From an uncultured Porticoccus sp. (GTDB lineage Bacteria; Pseudomonadota; Gammaproteobacteria; Pseudomonadales; Porticoccaceae): a DNA stretch of 64,000 bases. Every line of letters starts with the position of its first letter. Positions within the stretch are counted from its first letter, which is position 1. Location of the stretch: NCBI RefSeq assembly GCF_913061305.1, contig NZ_CAJXST010000001.1:186001-250000 (forward strand), written 5' to 3'. This document shows positions 18,588 to 26,571 of the stretch, piece after piece. A program made the position numbers and the translations under genes. The notes under the pieces were generated by a model. That model had not been told where the DNA came from. It searched no databases and was given only the letters and a program-made list of their open reading frames with translations.

Positions 18588-19367
18588 TCACTGCTTTTTA
18601 ATCAATGAGAGCAAAAACAGTCCTCCGGCACAGAGTACGATCGATGGCCCGGCTGGCGTGTCCAGAAACCAGGAGCTTGATAACCCGCAAATGACGGCGA
18701 TACAGCCCAAGAGACTGGCCAGCAATGCCATCTGCTCCGGGGTCCGCGCGAAACGTCTCGCCGTGGCGGCGGGTATAACCAGTAGCGATGTGATCAACAG
18801 GATTCCCACGACTTTCATCGCAATGGCAATTTCCAGGGCAATTATCAACATAAAAGCCGACCGCACAGCCGTTACCGGTATTCCCTCCACCCTGGCCAGT
18901 TCTTCATGGATGGTGATCGACAGGAGTGGTCTCCAGAGTAGTACCATCAATAAAATCGATGCGGTACCAATACTGTAGATAATCACAATATCTTGCGCTG
19001 TAACGGTTAATAAATCGCCAAACAAAAGGCTGAGCAAATCCACTTTGACAGAGGGCATCAGCGAGATTGCCACCAGACCAATGGCCAGTGAGGTATGTGA
19101 AAGAATCCCCAGCAGGGTGTCTGAGGCAAGATTTTGCTGTTGTTGCAATACCACCAGGATTAGCGCCAGTACCAGGCAGACAATGACCACCGACAGGGTT
19201 GGGTGAATGGACATCAACAGGGCCAGCGCCACCCCCAGCAGGGAAGAGTGAGCCAGGGTATCGCCAAAATAGGCCATGCGCCGCCAGACAATAAAGGCAC
19301 CCAGCGGTCCGGTGACCAGGGCAACCCCCAGCCCTGCCAGCAGGGCGTAAAGCAAAACATCAATCAT
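18588..19367 (-). CDS. znuB: Zinc ABC transporter permease ZnuB
   Basis: Inner-membrane channel of the high-affinity Zn2+ importer. 259 residues, about eight membrane helices, ABC-3 permease family. The open frame extends to 19520 inside znuC, but the ATG at 19367 has an excellent GGAGGTGGCC just upstream and matches the family N-terminus. It overlaps the end of znuC by 8 bases, indicating translational coupling. Confidence 0.95.
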
Positions 19368-20118
19368 GGTGGCCACCTCCGGAATGGCCATTGCGGCTGT
19401 TATCTGCCGGGTCATGACTGTGATCGTGGTGGTGCGTGTAGGGCGCGGTCCTGCTGCCGAAAAGCTCGATAAAAGCCGGATTTGTACTGACCTGGTCGGG
19501 ATGGCCGTGACAGCAGACATGCTGGTTAAGGCAGATAACTTCGTCCGTGGCCGACATCACCAGATGCAAGTCGTGGGAGACCATCAGCACGCCGCAGTCC
19601 AGTCGATCCCGGAGTTGCCCGATCAAGCGATAAAGGCCTTCCTGACCGATCACGTCAACCCCCTGAACCGGTTCATCAAGTACCAGTAAATTGGGTTTTC
19701 GCAGGATAGCCCGGGCCAGCAGGGCCCGCTGCATTTCGCCGCCGGAGAGGGATTGCAAGGGCATATCAATCAGCTTCTCAATGCCAACTTCGGCCAGTGC
19801 ATTAAGGCACAGCTGCAAGCTGGGTTCTGCCAGCGACAGAAAACGCCGCAGCGTAAGGGGCAATGTCGGGTCGATATGTAATTTCTGTGGCATGTACCCG
19901 ACACGCAGGTCAGGGGCCCGGGTCACTGTACCAGTATCCGGTTTGAGTAAACTGAGGACAATTTTTACCAGGGTGGTTTTGCCGGCCCCGTTCGGTCCAA
20001 TCAGTGTAATAATCTGCCCCGTCTCGATGGTCAGGCTGACGTCCGATAAAACACGGTTTCCCTGAAAGGCATGCCCGATTGCGCTGAGTTCGATCAGCGG
20101 CGCCTTCACAATTGGCAC
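19360..20118 (-). CDS. znuC: Zinc ABC transporter ATPase ZnuC
   Basis: Cytoplasmic ATPase powering ZnuB. 252 residues (E. coli about 251). Walker [10 protein letters not shown], signature LSGGE and Walker B LLVLDEP are intact, with the switch His in MVSHDLH. The C-terminal 28 residues are very histidine-rich (THHHDHSHD and GHHD), which could bind or sense zinc at the cytoplasmic face. Start overlaps the end of zur by 13 bases, so zur-znuC-znuB is one coupled operon. Confidence 0.95.
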
Positions 20119-20594
20119 TCCGGACAGATACCGACGATTTCAATCACTTTGGATTCCACCTGAAAGTTTGCCCGCCCGGCGGCGTGTTTGACGGCATGAT
20201 CCACCTGGTCGTCGCTGCACTCTGCCGTTGAACCGCATTGTCCACAGATGAGAAAAAAATCACTGTGATAATTACCGGGAAACGGGCAGCCTATGTAGGC
20301 GTTCAGGGACGAGAGACGATGAATCAGGCCCTGGTCCAGCAGGAACTGAATCGCCCGGTAAACCGTAGGCGGCAAAATACGATGAGCAGACATTTCTGAT
20401 TGCGACATCAGGTCGACTATTTCATAGGCGCCGAGTGGGCGGTGACTGGCCCATATGGTTTTCAGAACCGTTTCACGTATCGGCGTGAGCCGGGCTTTTC
20501 TGGCATCACAAAGCTCCCTGGCACGGCACAGTGCTGCATTGATACAGCGCTTGTGGTCATGGTGGTGATAAGCGATTCGGGAGTTGGTCAGCAT
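20106..20594 (-). CDS. zur: Zinc uptake regulator Zur (Fur family)
   Basis: Zn-dependent repressor of zinc import. 162 residues with an N-terminal winged helix ([28 protein letters not shown]) and a C-terminal dimer domain. The structural zinc site is clear: CGQC near residue 113 and CPEC at the end. Upstream of the helix is an unusual His/Cys-rich stretch (HHHDHKRC, about 10-17). It is first in the zur-znuCB operon and divergent from znuA, which is the standard autoregulated arrangement. Confidence 0.95.
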
Positions 20595-20615
20595 TTCTAG
20601 TCTCTTCAGAAAAGA

Positions 20616-20630
20616 TGTTACTTTATATCG
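20616..20630. promoter_or_regulatory. Candidate Zur box
   Basis: TGTTACTTTATATCG matches the enteric Zur core TGTTATAnTATAACA at 10 of 14 defined positions; the flanks GAAA and TTTATTC also resemble the outer arms. It begins 22 bases upstream of the zur start codon in the zur/znuA divergent gap. Matching was done by eye. Confidence 0.45.
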
Positions 20631-20640
20631 TTTATTCTGT

Positions 20641-20661
20641 AGTTGAGAATACAGTTCAACT
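20641..20661. repeat. Inverted repeat in the zur-znuA gap
   Basis: AGTTGA / TCAACT perfect arms of 6 with a 9-base centre. It could be a second operator site for Zur or another regulator on the znuA side, or chance; the arms do not match the Zur consensus. Confidence 0.35.
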
Positions 20662-20803
20662 CAAATAGGTAATATTGATACATTGTTGCATTTAGCTTTG
20701 GTTGCCACGGTATGAACCATTTATGGCTCTAGAGCCTGGCAGTCAGTATACTTTCAGGGCCTGTAGTTGAATCTCCATTGATGAAACAATATAGCAATAG
20801 ATA

Positions 20804-21715
20804 ATGAAAAAGAAGACATATACACATGGGATCGCCCTGTTGATTGCTGGCGCAATGCTGGCAAACAGGGTCATTGCAGATGAAGTCCCGGAAGTGATCG
20901 CTTCCATCAAGCCCCTCGCTGCCATAGCTGAGGCGATTGCTGGCGAAAGCGTTGTGGTCAAAGTGTTATTACCGGCAAATATCTCACCCCATGACTACTC
21001 ACTGAAATTTTCCGATCTTCGTGCACTAAGGTCTGCCAAGCTGATCATTTGGATTGGTCCACACTTTGAGTCTGTGTTGCAGAAACCCCTGGCACAACGG
21101 TCTGACTCGCAGTTACAGATTGCCCAATTAAACGGGTTGATTTGGCCGCCGGAACACACGGAAAAAACCCCGGAGCACTCACACGGACATGCGCATGATA
21201 GTCTCACACGGGACTTACATGTCTGGCTCAATCCGATGAATGGAATCGTGATTGCCCGGGCGATTGCAGCGGAGCTGACCAGGAAATACCCTGCCAAACA
21301 GGCCATTTTTGATCAGAATCTCGAGGCGTTTACCGAGATGGTTACTCAACTGGACTCCGTGAGCAGGCAGCGGCTTGCGGGTTTGCGCGAACGCGGTTTT
21401 ATCGTCATGCATGATGGCTATAGTCATTTTGTCGCTCATTACGGACTGACGCAGTTGGCTATGATGCAGCTGTCCAGCGGGGTAACACAAGGCATCCGCC
21501 ACTACGGGCAAATGTTGGCGCTGGGGCAGCAAGTAGGCTGTGTCTTCAGTGAACCGCAACTGGACAGTAAGGCCGCCCACCAGTTGGCGCAGCAACTGGG
21601 GGCAAAAAGTGCCGAGCTCGACCCCCTGGGTATCCACCTGGATTCAGTAAAGGAGGGTTATCCAGCGCTGATAGAGGGTATTGTGGACGCGTTTGTCAGT
21701 TGCCTGAGCGAATAA
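20804..21715 (+). CDS. znuA: Zinc ABC transporter periplasmic binding protein ZnuA
   Basis: Captures Zn2+ in the periplasm for ZnuBC. 303 residues: signal peptide (about 1-25), then a cluster A-I binding fold. Zinc ligand His63 is in SPHDYS, followed by the mobile His/acidic loop (EHTEKTPEHSHGHAHD, about 118-132), His139 in LHVWLNP and the HDGYSHF segment. Divergent from zur with a 209-base gap. Confidence 0.95.
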   Translation: MKKKTYTHGIALLIAGAMLANRVIADEVPEVIASIKPLAAIAEAIAGESVVVKVLLPANISPHDYSLKFSDLRALRSAKLIIWIGPHFESVLQKPLAQRSDSQLQIAQLNGLIWPPEHTEKTPEHSHGHAHDSLTRDLHVWLNPMNGIVIARAIAAELTRKYPAKQAIFDQNLEAFTEMVTQLDSVSRQRLAGLRERGFIVMHDGYSHFVAHYGLTQLAMMQLSSGVTQGIRHYGQMLALGQQVGCVFSEPQLDSKAAHQLAQQLGAKSAELDPLGIHLDSVKEGYPALIEGIVDAFVSCLSE

Positions 21716-22678: not shown

Positions 22679-22790
22679 GGCGTTAATGATACCTCACGAA
22701 TTTCCTGGTTAGATTAGCCGCTTGTTGGCTGGAAAGAAACAATTTGGGGTATGCTTCACCCATCCAAGTCTCTGCTCAAGTTGCCTGCCA

Positions 22791-25511
22791 ATGAATGATA
22801 AAACACCGCTCGTACTGGTGGATGGATCCTCCTACCTCTACCGGGCTTTCCACGCCTTACCTCCCCTGATTACTTCGGGTGGACAGCCAACTGGCGCTAT
22901 CAAGGGGGTTATCTCAATGATACGCCGCCTGTTGAAGGACTACCCAGGAAGCCCGCTGGTGGTGGTTTTTGATGCGAAGGGGAAAACCTTTCGCGATGAA
23001 CTCTTTGAAGCGTACAAGTCACACCGCCCACCGATGCCCGATGAGTTGAGACAGCAGATTGAACCGATCCATCAGATTATCCGTGCCATGGGGTTGCCCC
23101 TGCTGGTGGAAGAGGGGGTGGAAGCAGACGATGTCATTGGTACGCTTGCGCTGAAAGCCTCGCAAAACCAGACCCATGTGGTGATCTCCACTGGTGACAA
23201 GGATATGGCTCAACTGGTTTCAGAGCAGATTACGCTGGTCAACACCATGACTGAAACGGTCATGGATCCGCAGGGGGTGATCGACAAATTCGGTATTCCG
23301 CCAGAATTGATGATTGATTATCTGGCGCTGGTTGGCGACAAATCAGACAACATCCCCGGTGTCCCTGGCGTCGGTGAAAAAACGGCCCTGGCCATACTGC
23401 AAAATCTGGGTGGTATGGATGCCATATACGGCAATCTGGAGGCGGTTGCCGAGCTCGATTTCCGCGGCGCCAAAAAAACACCGGCAAAGCTTGCCGAGAA
23501 CCGGGACCAGGCATTTCTTTCCTACCAGCTGGCGACCATTAAAACCGACGTGCCATTGACAGTAACCTTGTCGGAGCTGGGTAATGGCTTGCCCGATAAC
23601 GCCGCCCTGCTCGACTGGTTCCGCCAACTGGAGTTCAAGGGCTGGGTTGAGGAATTGCTCGCTGCCGGGGAAAGTGACAACAGTTTGTTGTCGCCAGCCG
23701 CTGACAAAGACTACCAGGTGATTCTCACTCAGCAGCAACTCGATCAGTGGCTGCAGAAATTGGAGCGGGCTGAATTGGTTGCCTTTGACACGGAAACCAC
23801 CAGCCTCGACTACATGCAGGCCAGCATTGTCGGCGTCTCCTTTGCAATTGCTGCGAATCAGGCGGCCTATGTCCCCCTTGCCCACGACTATCTGGGTGCA
23901 CCCCGGCAACTCGATCGGGATGCGGTGCTGGAACAATTGAAACCGTTGCTTGAGTCACCAAAACTCGCCAAGGTAGGCCAAAATCTCAAATATGACATGA
24001 GTGTACTGGCCAATCACGGTATTGCCATGCAGGGCATCCGCTTCGACACCATGCTTGAATCCTATGTGCTGGATTCCACTGCAACACGGCACGATATGGA
24101 TAGCCTGGCATTGAAGTACCTCGGGGAAAAAACCACCCACTTTCAGGATATAGCTGGCAAAGGTGCCAATCAGCTCACCTTCAATCAGATTGCCATTGAG
24201 CAGGCCGCTCCCTACGCGGCAGAAGATGCGGATATCACCCTGAGACTTCATGAAACACTCTGGCCAAAATTGCAGGATATAACCGGGCTGGCGCATGTTT
24301 ACCAGGCCATTGAAATGCCATTGGTGCCTGTTCTGTCAAGAATAGAAAGAAATGGAACAAAAGTAAGTGCTGACTTACTTCGGAAACAAAGCGACCAGTT
24401 GGGTGAACGCATAGCGGAGTTGGAGCAGCAGGCTTTTGAGTTGGCGGGGGAAGAATTCAATCTGGCCTCACCAAAACAGCTCGGCTACATTCTCTTTGAA
24501 AAACTGAAAATTCCGGTACAAAAGAAAACGGCCAAGGGCGCCGCTTCCACCAAAGAAGAGGTGCTGCAGGAGTTGGCGCTGGATTACCCGCTGCCGAAAT
24601 TACTGCTTGAGCATCGTAGCCTCAGCAAGCTCAAGTCCACCTATACCGACAAGCTGCCTTCGCTGGTTAATGCTGCTACAGGGCGAATTCATACTTCCTA
24701 TCATCAGGCGGTAACGGCAACCGGTCGGTTGTCTTCCTCTGACCCGAATTTACAGAATATTCCCGTGCGCTCCGCAGAGGGACGCCGCATTCGCCAGGCA
24801 TTTGTAGCCACAGAAGGTTGCAAGATAGTGGCGGCCGATTATTCGCAAATCGAGCTACGAATCATGGCCCATCTCTCGGGAGACCGCGGATTAAAAGCAG
24901 CATTCGATCAGAATCTTGATGTGCACAGTGCCACAGCCGCAGAGGTGTTTGGCGTCGAATTGGCTTCTGTGACGGGAGAACAGCGGCGCAGTGCCAAGGC
25001 GATCAATTTTGGATTGATCTACGGCATGTCAGCCTTCGGTCTGGGCCGCCAGTTGCACATTGGACGGAATCAGGCCCAGGAATATATCGATTTGTATTTT
25101 GCCCGCTACCCCGGGGTGCAGGCCTACATGGAGTCCACCCGAAAGCGTGCAGCCGAGCAAGGCTATGTTGAGACACTGTTTGGCCGGCGGTTGTATCTGC
25201 CCGAAATCAGGGCCAGTAACGGGATGCGCCGACAGGCCGCAGAGCGCACTGCGATCAATGCCCCGATGCAGGGAACAGCGGCCGATATCATTAAACTGGC
25301 AATGATCAGCGTCGATCAGTGGTTGGCGGATAAAAAGCTCAACGCCAGGATGATTATGCAAGTGCACGATGAGCTGGTTCTGGAGGTTCCCCAGGCTGAA
25401 CTGGAGGACGTGTTGTCTGGCCTCAAGGCTCGCATGACCGATGCCGCCCGGCTCGATGTGCCGCTGCTTGTCGATGTGGGTGTCGGTGATAACTGGGATG
25501 AGGCACATTAA
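22791..25511 (+). CDS. polA: DNA polymerase I
   Basis: Repair and Okazaki-fragment processing polymerase. 906 residues from the ATG at 22791, where the conserved [20 protein letters not shown] begins. Three domains: 5'-3' exonuclease (about 1-300), 3'-5' proofreading exonuclease with intact FDTETTSL and AEDADIT acidic residues, and polymerase with motif [11 protein letters not shown] and motif [12 protein letters not shown]. All catalytic acids are present, so it should proofread. Followed by the two sRNA genes rather than another coding gene. Confidence 0.98.
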
Positions 25512-25611
25512 GCGGTTTGGCGCTTTATCAAACTGAAAAAGCCATACAACTCTGAGGACAAAGAAAAAATTATTTTATAATCAAGTGCTTAAATTTTTTT
25601 TAAGCTGGATG
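25512..25611 (+). other. AT-rich leader of the polA-engB gap
   Basis: This is the first part of the only gap over 300 bases in the window (25512-25962). It has no coding frame. It is strongly AT-rich, with A- and T-tracts and a hairpin GCTTAAA / TTTAAGC (25587-25605, loop TTTTT) that may end polA transcription weakly or bend DNA upstream of the first sRNA promoter. The rest of the gap is filled by two tandem sRNA units, described separately. Confidence 0.6.
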
Positions 25612-25639
25612 GGAACTCATGCCATAAATAACTGACTAA
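25612..25639 (+). promoter_or_regulatory. Sigma-E/AlgU-type promoter of sRNA 1
   Basis: GGAACTC-N15-GACTAA, one mismatch in each element against the extracytoplasmic sigma-E/AlgU consensus GGAACTT-N15-GTCTAA. Spacing is exact and identical to that of unit 2. Confidence 0.7.
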
Positions 25640-25645
25640 CCTTAC

Positions 25646-25750
25646 GAGCAGGCAAATATTGCTTTGTTCTCCCCAAACTAAATGCAAAGCTCGTTAGTCC
25701 CCAAACAACGTGCAAAGCACGCCCTGATCTCGATGGTCAGGGTTTTTTTT
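25646..25750 (+). ncRNA. Small RNA 1 of the polA-engB locus (ErsA/Spot 42 position)
   Basis: Predicted transcript of about 105 nt from the promoter at 25612-25639 to the terminator T-run. The 5' end can form a short hairpin (GCAA-ATA-TTGC). Two C-rich unpaired segments follow, TCTCCCCAA and TCCCCAAACAAC, of the kind that pair with Shine-Dalgarno regions. Next come hairpin CGTGC-AAA-GCACG (25709-25721) and a terminator stem CCCTGA/TCAGGG with eight T. The polA-engB gap is where E. coli encodes Spot 42 and Pseudomonas encodes the AlgU-dependent sRNA ErsA. Exact 5' end is inferred. No open frame with a ribosome site is present. Confidence 0.75.
25722..25750 (+). terminator. Terminator of sRNA 1
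   Basis: Stem CCCTGA / TCAGGG with a 9-base loop and eight consecutive T, the Hfq-sRNA type of 3' end. Confidence 0.9.
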
Positions 25751-25800
25751 GCCCTGCACATTCTGCGGAAAAGGCTGAATAAAAAACTTTTTGTCAGAAT

Positions 25801-25828
25801 GGAACTTCTCATTGGCAGGAGAGACTAA
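25801..25828 (+). promoter_or_regulatory. Sigma-E/AlgU-type promoter of sRNA 2
   Basis: GGAACTT-N15-GACTAA. The -35 element is a perfect match and the -10 has one mismatch to GTCTAA. This is the better of the two promoters. Confidence 0.75.
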
Positions 25829-25835
25829 TTACTAC

Positions 25836-25934
25836 AAGCAACATTGCTATTTTCTCCCCAAGTTAAATGCAAGGTTTGTAAATCCCCAAACAACAGCAAG
25901 GCACGCCCTGATCTCAATGGTCAGGGTTTTTTTT
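25836..25934 (+). ncRNA. Small RNA 2 of the polA-engB locus
   Basis: Predicted transcript of about 99 nt, diverged copy of sRNA 1. Keeps the 5' AGCA/TGCT hairpin potential, both C-rich segments (TCTCCCCAA and TCCCCAAACAAC) and the terminator. It has lost the perfect CGTGC/GCACG hairpin of copy 1 through one deletion and two substitutions, so the middle should fold differently. The conserved C-rich segments suggest shared targets; the drifted middle (AAGGTTTGTAAA) suggests partly separate ones. Downstream engB is on the opposite strand, so the two units are isolated. Confidence 0.75.
25906..25934 (+). terminator. Terminator of sRNA 2
   Basis: Same stem and T-run as copy 1 (CCCTGA / TCAGGG, eight T); the loop differs by one base. 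It lies 28 bases before the convergent end of engB. Confidence 0.9.
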
Positions 25935-25962
25935 GCACGATATTCTTGCAAAAGGGGGATTG

Positions 25963-26571
25963 TCAGTCAGCCAACCAGGATTGAATCACCAGTTTTAATT
26001 GCTCGATGCCCGTTTTCTTTAGCGATGAAAAGGTTTGTACCGTCACCTCATCCCCGAACCCGGCATTGGTCAGCTCGCGTTTGACCGTCAGAAGTACCGT
26101 TTTAGCGGGACCATTATTCAATTTATCTGCTTTGGTGAGCAATAGATGAACCGGCATGGCAGACTGTGTGGCCCAGCCGATCATCTGCCAATCATATTCC
26201 TGTAATGGATGGCGAATATCCATCAGCATCACAAGACCTTTCAGGGAGCGGCGTTGTTGCAGATATTCGGCGAGATTGCGGTCCCACGCCTGTTTCATGG
26301 CCTTCGGTACTTTGGCGAAACCGTAACCGGGCAAATCCACCAGACGGCAGTTTTCGGTCAGGGAAAAAAAGTTGAGCAACTGCGTACGGCCGGGTGTTTT
26401 GCTGGTTCGGGCCAATTTACTATTGTTGGTAAGGGTATTGATGGCGCTGGACTTTCCGGCATTGGAGCGTCCGGCAAATGCAACTTCCCTGCCGACATCC
26501 TCCGGACACTGCCAAACAGTCGGGGCGCTAATGAGAAATTGAGTCTTGGTAAAAGAGATTTCTTCTGACAT
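25963..26571 (-). CDS. engB: Ribosome biogenesis GTPase EngB (YsxC/YihA)
   Basis: Essential GTPase of large-subunit assembly and cell division. 202 residues. GTP-binding motifs in order: G1 [10 protein letters not shown]2 region with conserved TPGRTQ, G3 DLPGYG, G4 TKAD and G5 SSLKK. Convergent with the sRNA pair and divergent from cytochrome c4, the usual polA-sRNA-engB-cytochrome c4 order. Confidence 0.97.

Follow-up and report, generated by a model that had tools for sequence, protein, structure and literature searches.

Results

Two tandem units occupy the polA–engB gap

The polA–engB gap of an uncultured, marine-type Porticoccus sp. (positions 25512–25962 of the window, the whole 64,000-nucleotide stretch of DNA that was analysed) contains two tandem units, arranged back to back, which probably encode sibling trans-acting small RNAs (sRNAs) of ~100–105 nt. 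To judge from their sequence, they would be transcribed from RpoE/AlgU-type promoters and would block mRNAs at G-rich ribosome-binding sites. The gap is flanked, as the earlier note on this DNA had stated, by polA (22722..25511, + strand), encoding DNA polymerase I, and by the convergent gene engB/ysxC (25963..26571, - strand), encoding a GTPase with a GRSNAGKSS motif. The polA coordinates are those of the longest frame, the true start being possibly further in; its assignment draws on relatives of the C-terminus, whose names suggest a position of the window near Porticoccaceae, the closest named record being that of Porticoccaceae bacterium NAT127 (78%).

Both units lie on the + strand and share one layout, in which an A/T-rich tract is followed by GGAACT-N16-GACTAA and then by a pair of C-rich segments, with a hairpin-T8 terminator at the end. 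In unit 1, the A/T-rich tract upstream of the -35 (25590..25611) is a possible UP element, and similar tracts were seen ahead of many units in relatives. The predicted sigma-E/AlgU-type promoter (25612..25639; GGAACT at 25612–25617, GACTAA at 25634–25639) precedes a predicted sRNA of ~105 nt (25646..25750), whose start was placed from the promoter and which is supported by its fold, the R1 covariance model and conservation. It carries C-rich segment 1 (TCTCCCCAAA, 25668..25677, predicted to be unpaired), C-rich segment 2 (TCCCCAAACAAC, 25698..25709, in the loop of the second hairpin) and an intrinsic terminator (25721..25750, with the stem starting at 25721 and T8 at 25743–25750). After a spacer that includes a further A/T-rich tract (25751..25800), unit 2 repeats this order, with a predicted sigma-E/AlgU-type promoter (25801..25828; GGAACT at 25801–25806, GACTAA at 25823–25828), a predicted sRNA of ~100 nt (25835..25934; start likewise placed from the promoter, support from the R1 model and conservation), C-rich segments 1 (TTCTCCCCAAG, 25852..25862) and 2 (TCCCCAAACAAC, 25883..25894), and an intrinsic terminator (25905..25934, with the stem starting at 25905 and T8 at 25927–25934).

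The earlier description of tandem direct repeats, each closed by a hairpin-T8 terminator and preceded by a promoter of identical spacing (written there as GGAACT(T/C)-N15), was confirmed. The high similarity of the repeats also stood, but not the figure of about 87% estimated by eye: the transcribed parts match at 87 of 104 aligned bases, i.e. 84% ungapped or 82% counting gaps. Searched with a model built on the unit, the genome as a whole gave no copies beyond these two. Elsewhere in the window (19360–21715), an apparent zinc uptake set was recognised from translations only, comprising an ABC ATPase, a Fur-family (Zur-like) regulator and a histidine-rich periplasmic metal-binding protein.

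Promoters and sigma factor

That each copy has its own AlgU/RpoE-type promoter, as had been proposed, was supported by the strict promoter pattern, of which the gap has two instances and 2000 dinucleotide shuffles have none. A search of the whole 2.68-Mb genome for GGAACTTN{14,17}GNCTAA returned a single match, at unit 2, unit 1 being missed because it reads GGAACTC. Across six close species the -35 and -10 of unit 1 are identical and the -35 of unit 2 is invariant; the -10 of unit 2 is GACAAA in five close relatives. In the family as a whole, a sigma-E-type promoter was found in 23 of the 25 gaps with engB in reach, against 0.09 in shuffles. The units thus display the arrangement typical of the sigma-E-type sRNA class, in which a promoter of RpoE/AlgU type stands immediately before a short unit with its own terminator.

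GGAACTT is an RpoE/AlgU-type -35, and the classical sigma-E -10 is TCTGA, from which the GACTAA of both units departs. The genome encodes an RpoE/AlgU-type sigma factor (314 bits, for a cut-off of 236), whose gene is followed by one for a protein with an RseA_N domain (RseA/MucA-like partner), and it also encodes Hfq. Between the rpoE and RseA_N genes there is a candidate sigma-E-type site, an equally loose match being also expected by chance. Five further ECF-like proteins matched the RpoE model, all below the cut-off, and the + strand of the gap yielded no sigma-70-type site.

Predicted RNA structure and C-rich segments

Both window copies and their relatives are predicted to fold alike: a hairpin at the 5' end is followed by an open linker rich in C, then by a second hairpin whose loop is C-rich, and last by the terminator. 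The loss of one hairpin in copy 2, inferred earlier from the letters, was not borne out, since one fold plan is common to both copies. An extra GTGCAAAGCAC palindrome is present in copy 1 of the window, and the five closest relatives lack it in their copy 1, so that it looks like a gain in the lineage of this organism. Fold z-scores were -3.4 for copy 1 and -1.8 for copy 2. The C-rich segments were predicted to be 80–96% unpaired (probability 0.96 for segment 1 of unit 1), and among six species they are 100% conserved in copy 1 and 94% conserved in copy 2. The earlier expectation of unpaired and conserved segments was therefore upheld, as predicted accessibility and, for copy 1, as full conservation among close species. 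In these models the units present the accessible, conserved CCCC segments that mark C-rich anti-Shine-Dalgarno sRNAs with an sX13-like action.

Terminator stems show compensatory changes across relatives. When the fold plan was applied to 23 units, one of which had been the source of the plan, 85% of cells were paired and 6 pairs had changed on both sides, a result above every slid version. Covariation of helices outside the terminator is modest, and RNAalifold alone, applied to a wider alignment, kept only the terminator. Units 1 and 2 scored 94 and 105 bits, respectively, with the R1 model, both being among the model's own sequences.

Relation to known sRNAs

The position of the pair, in the polA–engB gap and on the polA strand, is that of Spot 42 and ErsA, as had been noted. 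Membership of either sequence family, by contrast, was not supported by covariance search: neither the ErsA model (RF01719) nor the Spot 42 model (RF00021) matched in the gap at the gathering threshold or at any E-value up to 10. In positive controls, RF01719 matched Pseudomonas gaps with 112–138 bits and RF00021 matched enteric and Photobacterium gaps (L032, L049 and L085) with 120–126 bits. The failure of both Rfam models on the units indicates, at the level of sequence, that these are a separate family, hereafter type A, for which Rfam has no model. Spot 42 shares their gene neighbourhood and differs in its control, being regulated by CRP and not by sigma-E, whereas the window units have sigma-E-type promoters.

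ErsA (Rfam RF01719, Pseudomon-1) is closer in kind. It sits in the polA–engB region (PMC8575079), is strictly dependent on sigma-22 (AlgU) (PMC7565897), and resembles the units in gap and orientation, GAACT-type promoter, C-rich segments and hairpin with U-rich end. Unlike the window genome, with its two units, the Pseudomonas gaps examined hold a single copy, and the type-A model meets these gaps only over the 3' terminator part, never with an E-value better than 0.2. The units accordingly share with ErsA the locus, the promoter type and probably the mode of action, but not the sequence family. In Xanthomonas, the CCCC loops of sX13 repress mRNAs bearing G-rich motifs (PMC3771888); sX13 and the alpha-r7 sRNAs of alphaproteobacteria are likewise polA-adjacent and carry C-rich CCCC segments acting on G-rich mRNA motifs, as tested for sX13; no sequence relation to the units was seen. 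In addition, sX13 differs in working without Hfq and in having three C-rich loops. Tandem sibling sRNAs such as PrrF1/PrrF2, OmrA/OmrB and AbcR1/AbcR2 are tandem duplicates with partly redundant functions (PMC4211561). As judged from sequence, the window units have the same organisation of adjacent homologous genes, each with its own promoter and terminator, at another locus and with other regulators and sequences. Searches of an open-access library turned up neither an account of duplicated sRNAs at the polA locus nor one of the units described here. What is new here is the duplicated form; an sRNA of this kind at the polA locus is already known from Pseudomonas.

Conservation and age of the duplication

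Sixteen other genomes of the genus were inspected, one of which (G011) was unreadable because polA ends near a contig edge. Most carry two units and G008 and G016 carry three; in G010 two contigs share the gap, and no fewer than two units could be counted. All readable genomes of normal size therefore have two or three units (at least two in the split G010), and the small genomes G001 and G014 (1.2–1.3 Mb) have one diverged unit each. In another genome, G003 (L010), an internal deletion takes out the second C-rich segment of unit 1, a natural variant with one C-rich segment.

Aligning the gaps across relatives, as had been suggested for dating the duplication, showed that in the six closest species copy 1 forms one clade and copy 2 another, so that the duplication predates those species. 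Among more distant members of the genus, the grouping of the copies follows in part the sets of species, a pattern compatible with gene conversion or with duplications that took place separately. Pairwise identity in the six species reached 97% in the transcript of unit 1 and 96% in that of unit 2, compared with 90% at third codon positions of polA and with 52% upstream of unit 1, 82% between the units and 79% after unit 2 in the spacers. From this comparison, both copies appear to be under purifying selection. Their equal conservation argues against decay of either copy, and does not imply that they have different jobs.

Unit types across the family and beyond

Two unrelated types of unit occupy the gap in the family: type A, the kind found in the window, and type B, typified by a C-rich loop on top of a GC-rich stem (e.g. 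CCGGG/CCCGG) and by a GC-rich terminator, often with GGCGC. Covariance models of the two types gave no convincing cross-match. In other members of the family the gap contains a single unit, of type A or of type B, or else A followed by B, the last in at least one genome of each of five other genera (g2, g4, g7, g11 and g14). One of these A-then-B gaps (G022, L121:300-660) contains a second, shortened B unit after the first, and so records another sRNA duplication at this site. Sampled genomes of g8, g9, g10 and g13 have A only, and those of g6 and one of g12 have B only; in g3 B is preceded by a sigma-E-type unit that neither model matched. In a survey of 80 further PolA loci, the majority of them gammaproteobacterial, NAT127, of the same family, was alone in having two terminated sigma-E-type units in the gap.

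Some further arrangements were observed. In the polA–engB gap of family genus g5 (L119 and L120), one promoter-bearing unit is followed by at least two partial copies without promoter, forming a terminator-like array whose copies end in a nearly identical terminator (GCTAGCCCCAACCGTTTTGGTCTGGGGCTTTTTTTT in L119). In the corresponding gap of a Chromatiales locus (L070, 1217–1645), a possible second C-rich terminated unit follows a promoter-bearing one, its own promoter not being clear. Matches of the type-A model in three other families of the order were set aside as lying away from polA and being weak or terminator-like, apart from one promoter-bearing unit present in two genomes. This unit (L245:1400-1530, and near the end of L246, in another family of the order) has a GAACTT-type promoter, C-rich segments and a terminator, scores 47 bits with type A, and adjoins an oxidoreductase-like gene instead of polA; it would be a relocated or a convergent relative.

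Candidate targets

The best target candidate is the mRNA of a TonB-dependent receptor, whose 5' region lies at G000 contig 2, 30228, and whose TTTGGGGAGAATTATG could form a ten-base duplex with TTCTCCCCAA. Four species, close to one another, have the gene, and in each of them G-U changes preserve the pairing; a perfect match was not found beyond close relatives. As a group, the 15 TonB-dependent receptors showed no advantage in pairing over 51 control genes (p 0.18 and 0.62). Strong matches, when counted post hoc, numbered 3/15 for receptors and 1/51 for controls (p 0.03), a difference that was not relied on. Given the closeness of the species and the lack of group enrichment, this receptor stays a prediction. 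Another receptor, L210, was rejected because its G-rich stretch reads as the conserved end (RVWGK) of an overlapping upstream frame, and its conservation is therefore no evidence of pairing. A genus-wide search for the exact complement TTGGGGAGA before an ATG found no conserved gene with a credible start, antisense of the sRNAs themselves aside; one recurrent match, of 407 codons, lies inside a long open frame, which makes its ATG an unlikely start.

Discussion

The sequence features described above suggest the following course of events. A tandem duplication within the polA–engB gap would have given rise to two sibling sRNA genes. Under envelope stress, a single RpoE/AlgU sigma factor would transcribe both units, Hfq would bind the U-rich 3' tail of the transcripts, and the UCUCCCCAA and UCCCCAAAC segments would pair with G-rich Shine-Dalgarno regions to repress translation of a set of mRNAs that probably includes the outer-membrane TonB-dependent receptor. 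The second copy may mainly raise the dose, copy-specific targets being possible.

An unlikely alternative is that only one sRNA works, probably that of unit 1, unit 2 being redundant and retained chiefly for the dose that it adds or as a spare terminator where the two genes converge. The weaker predicted fold of copy 2, its GACAAA -10 in five relatives and the slight variation of its C-rich segments would be in keeping with this, yet copy 2 as a whole is as conserved as copy 1 and retains an invariant -35, and a second unit is present in all readable genus genomes of normal size. Somewhat less probable again is that the sRNAs are real but depend on another ECF sigma factor or on a general promoter. 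The additional sub-threshold ECF-like proteins and the non-classical -10 leave some room for this reading, against which stand the established RpoE/AlgU character of the GGAACTT -35, the sigma-22 dependence of ErsA at the same locus and the failure to find a sigma-70-type site on the + strand of the gap.

It is very improbable that the units are merely transcription terminators or repeats whose resemblance to promoters is due to chance. The flanking genes do converge, and no strong terminator was reported between the polA stop and unit 1; but chance would not account for a promoter type so widespread in family gaps and so rare in shuffles, nor terminator function for the conservation of the body upstream of the terminator. 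Least credible is a small protein encoded by each unit in place of RNA action: short frames exist, as expected by chance, but the longest vary among relatives in frame, length (4 to 36 codons) and sequence, and units from different species also differ in length by numbers of bases that are not multiples of three. A pair of sibling, RpoE/AlgU-type sRNAs is thus the preferred reading.

Spot 42, ErsA and sX13 have in common an sRNA slot beside polA, often driven by sigma-E, in which the sequence turns over and the locus, the promoter type and the C-rich segments remain. More tentatively, the polA–engB gap of this family may be a hot spot in which sigma-E-driven sRNA genes undergo repeated duplication, replacement and loss (A, A+A, A+A+A, A+B, A+B+B and B), such that one stress sigma factor would command a small evolving array of C-rich sRNAs with envelope targets divided among its members. 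The graded copy number, from one to three in related species, provides a natural series in which to ask whether sRNA duplication serves dose or target division, and the units add a candidate envelope-stress sRNA without Rfam entry from a group known largely through metagenome assemblies.
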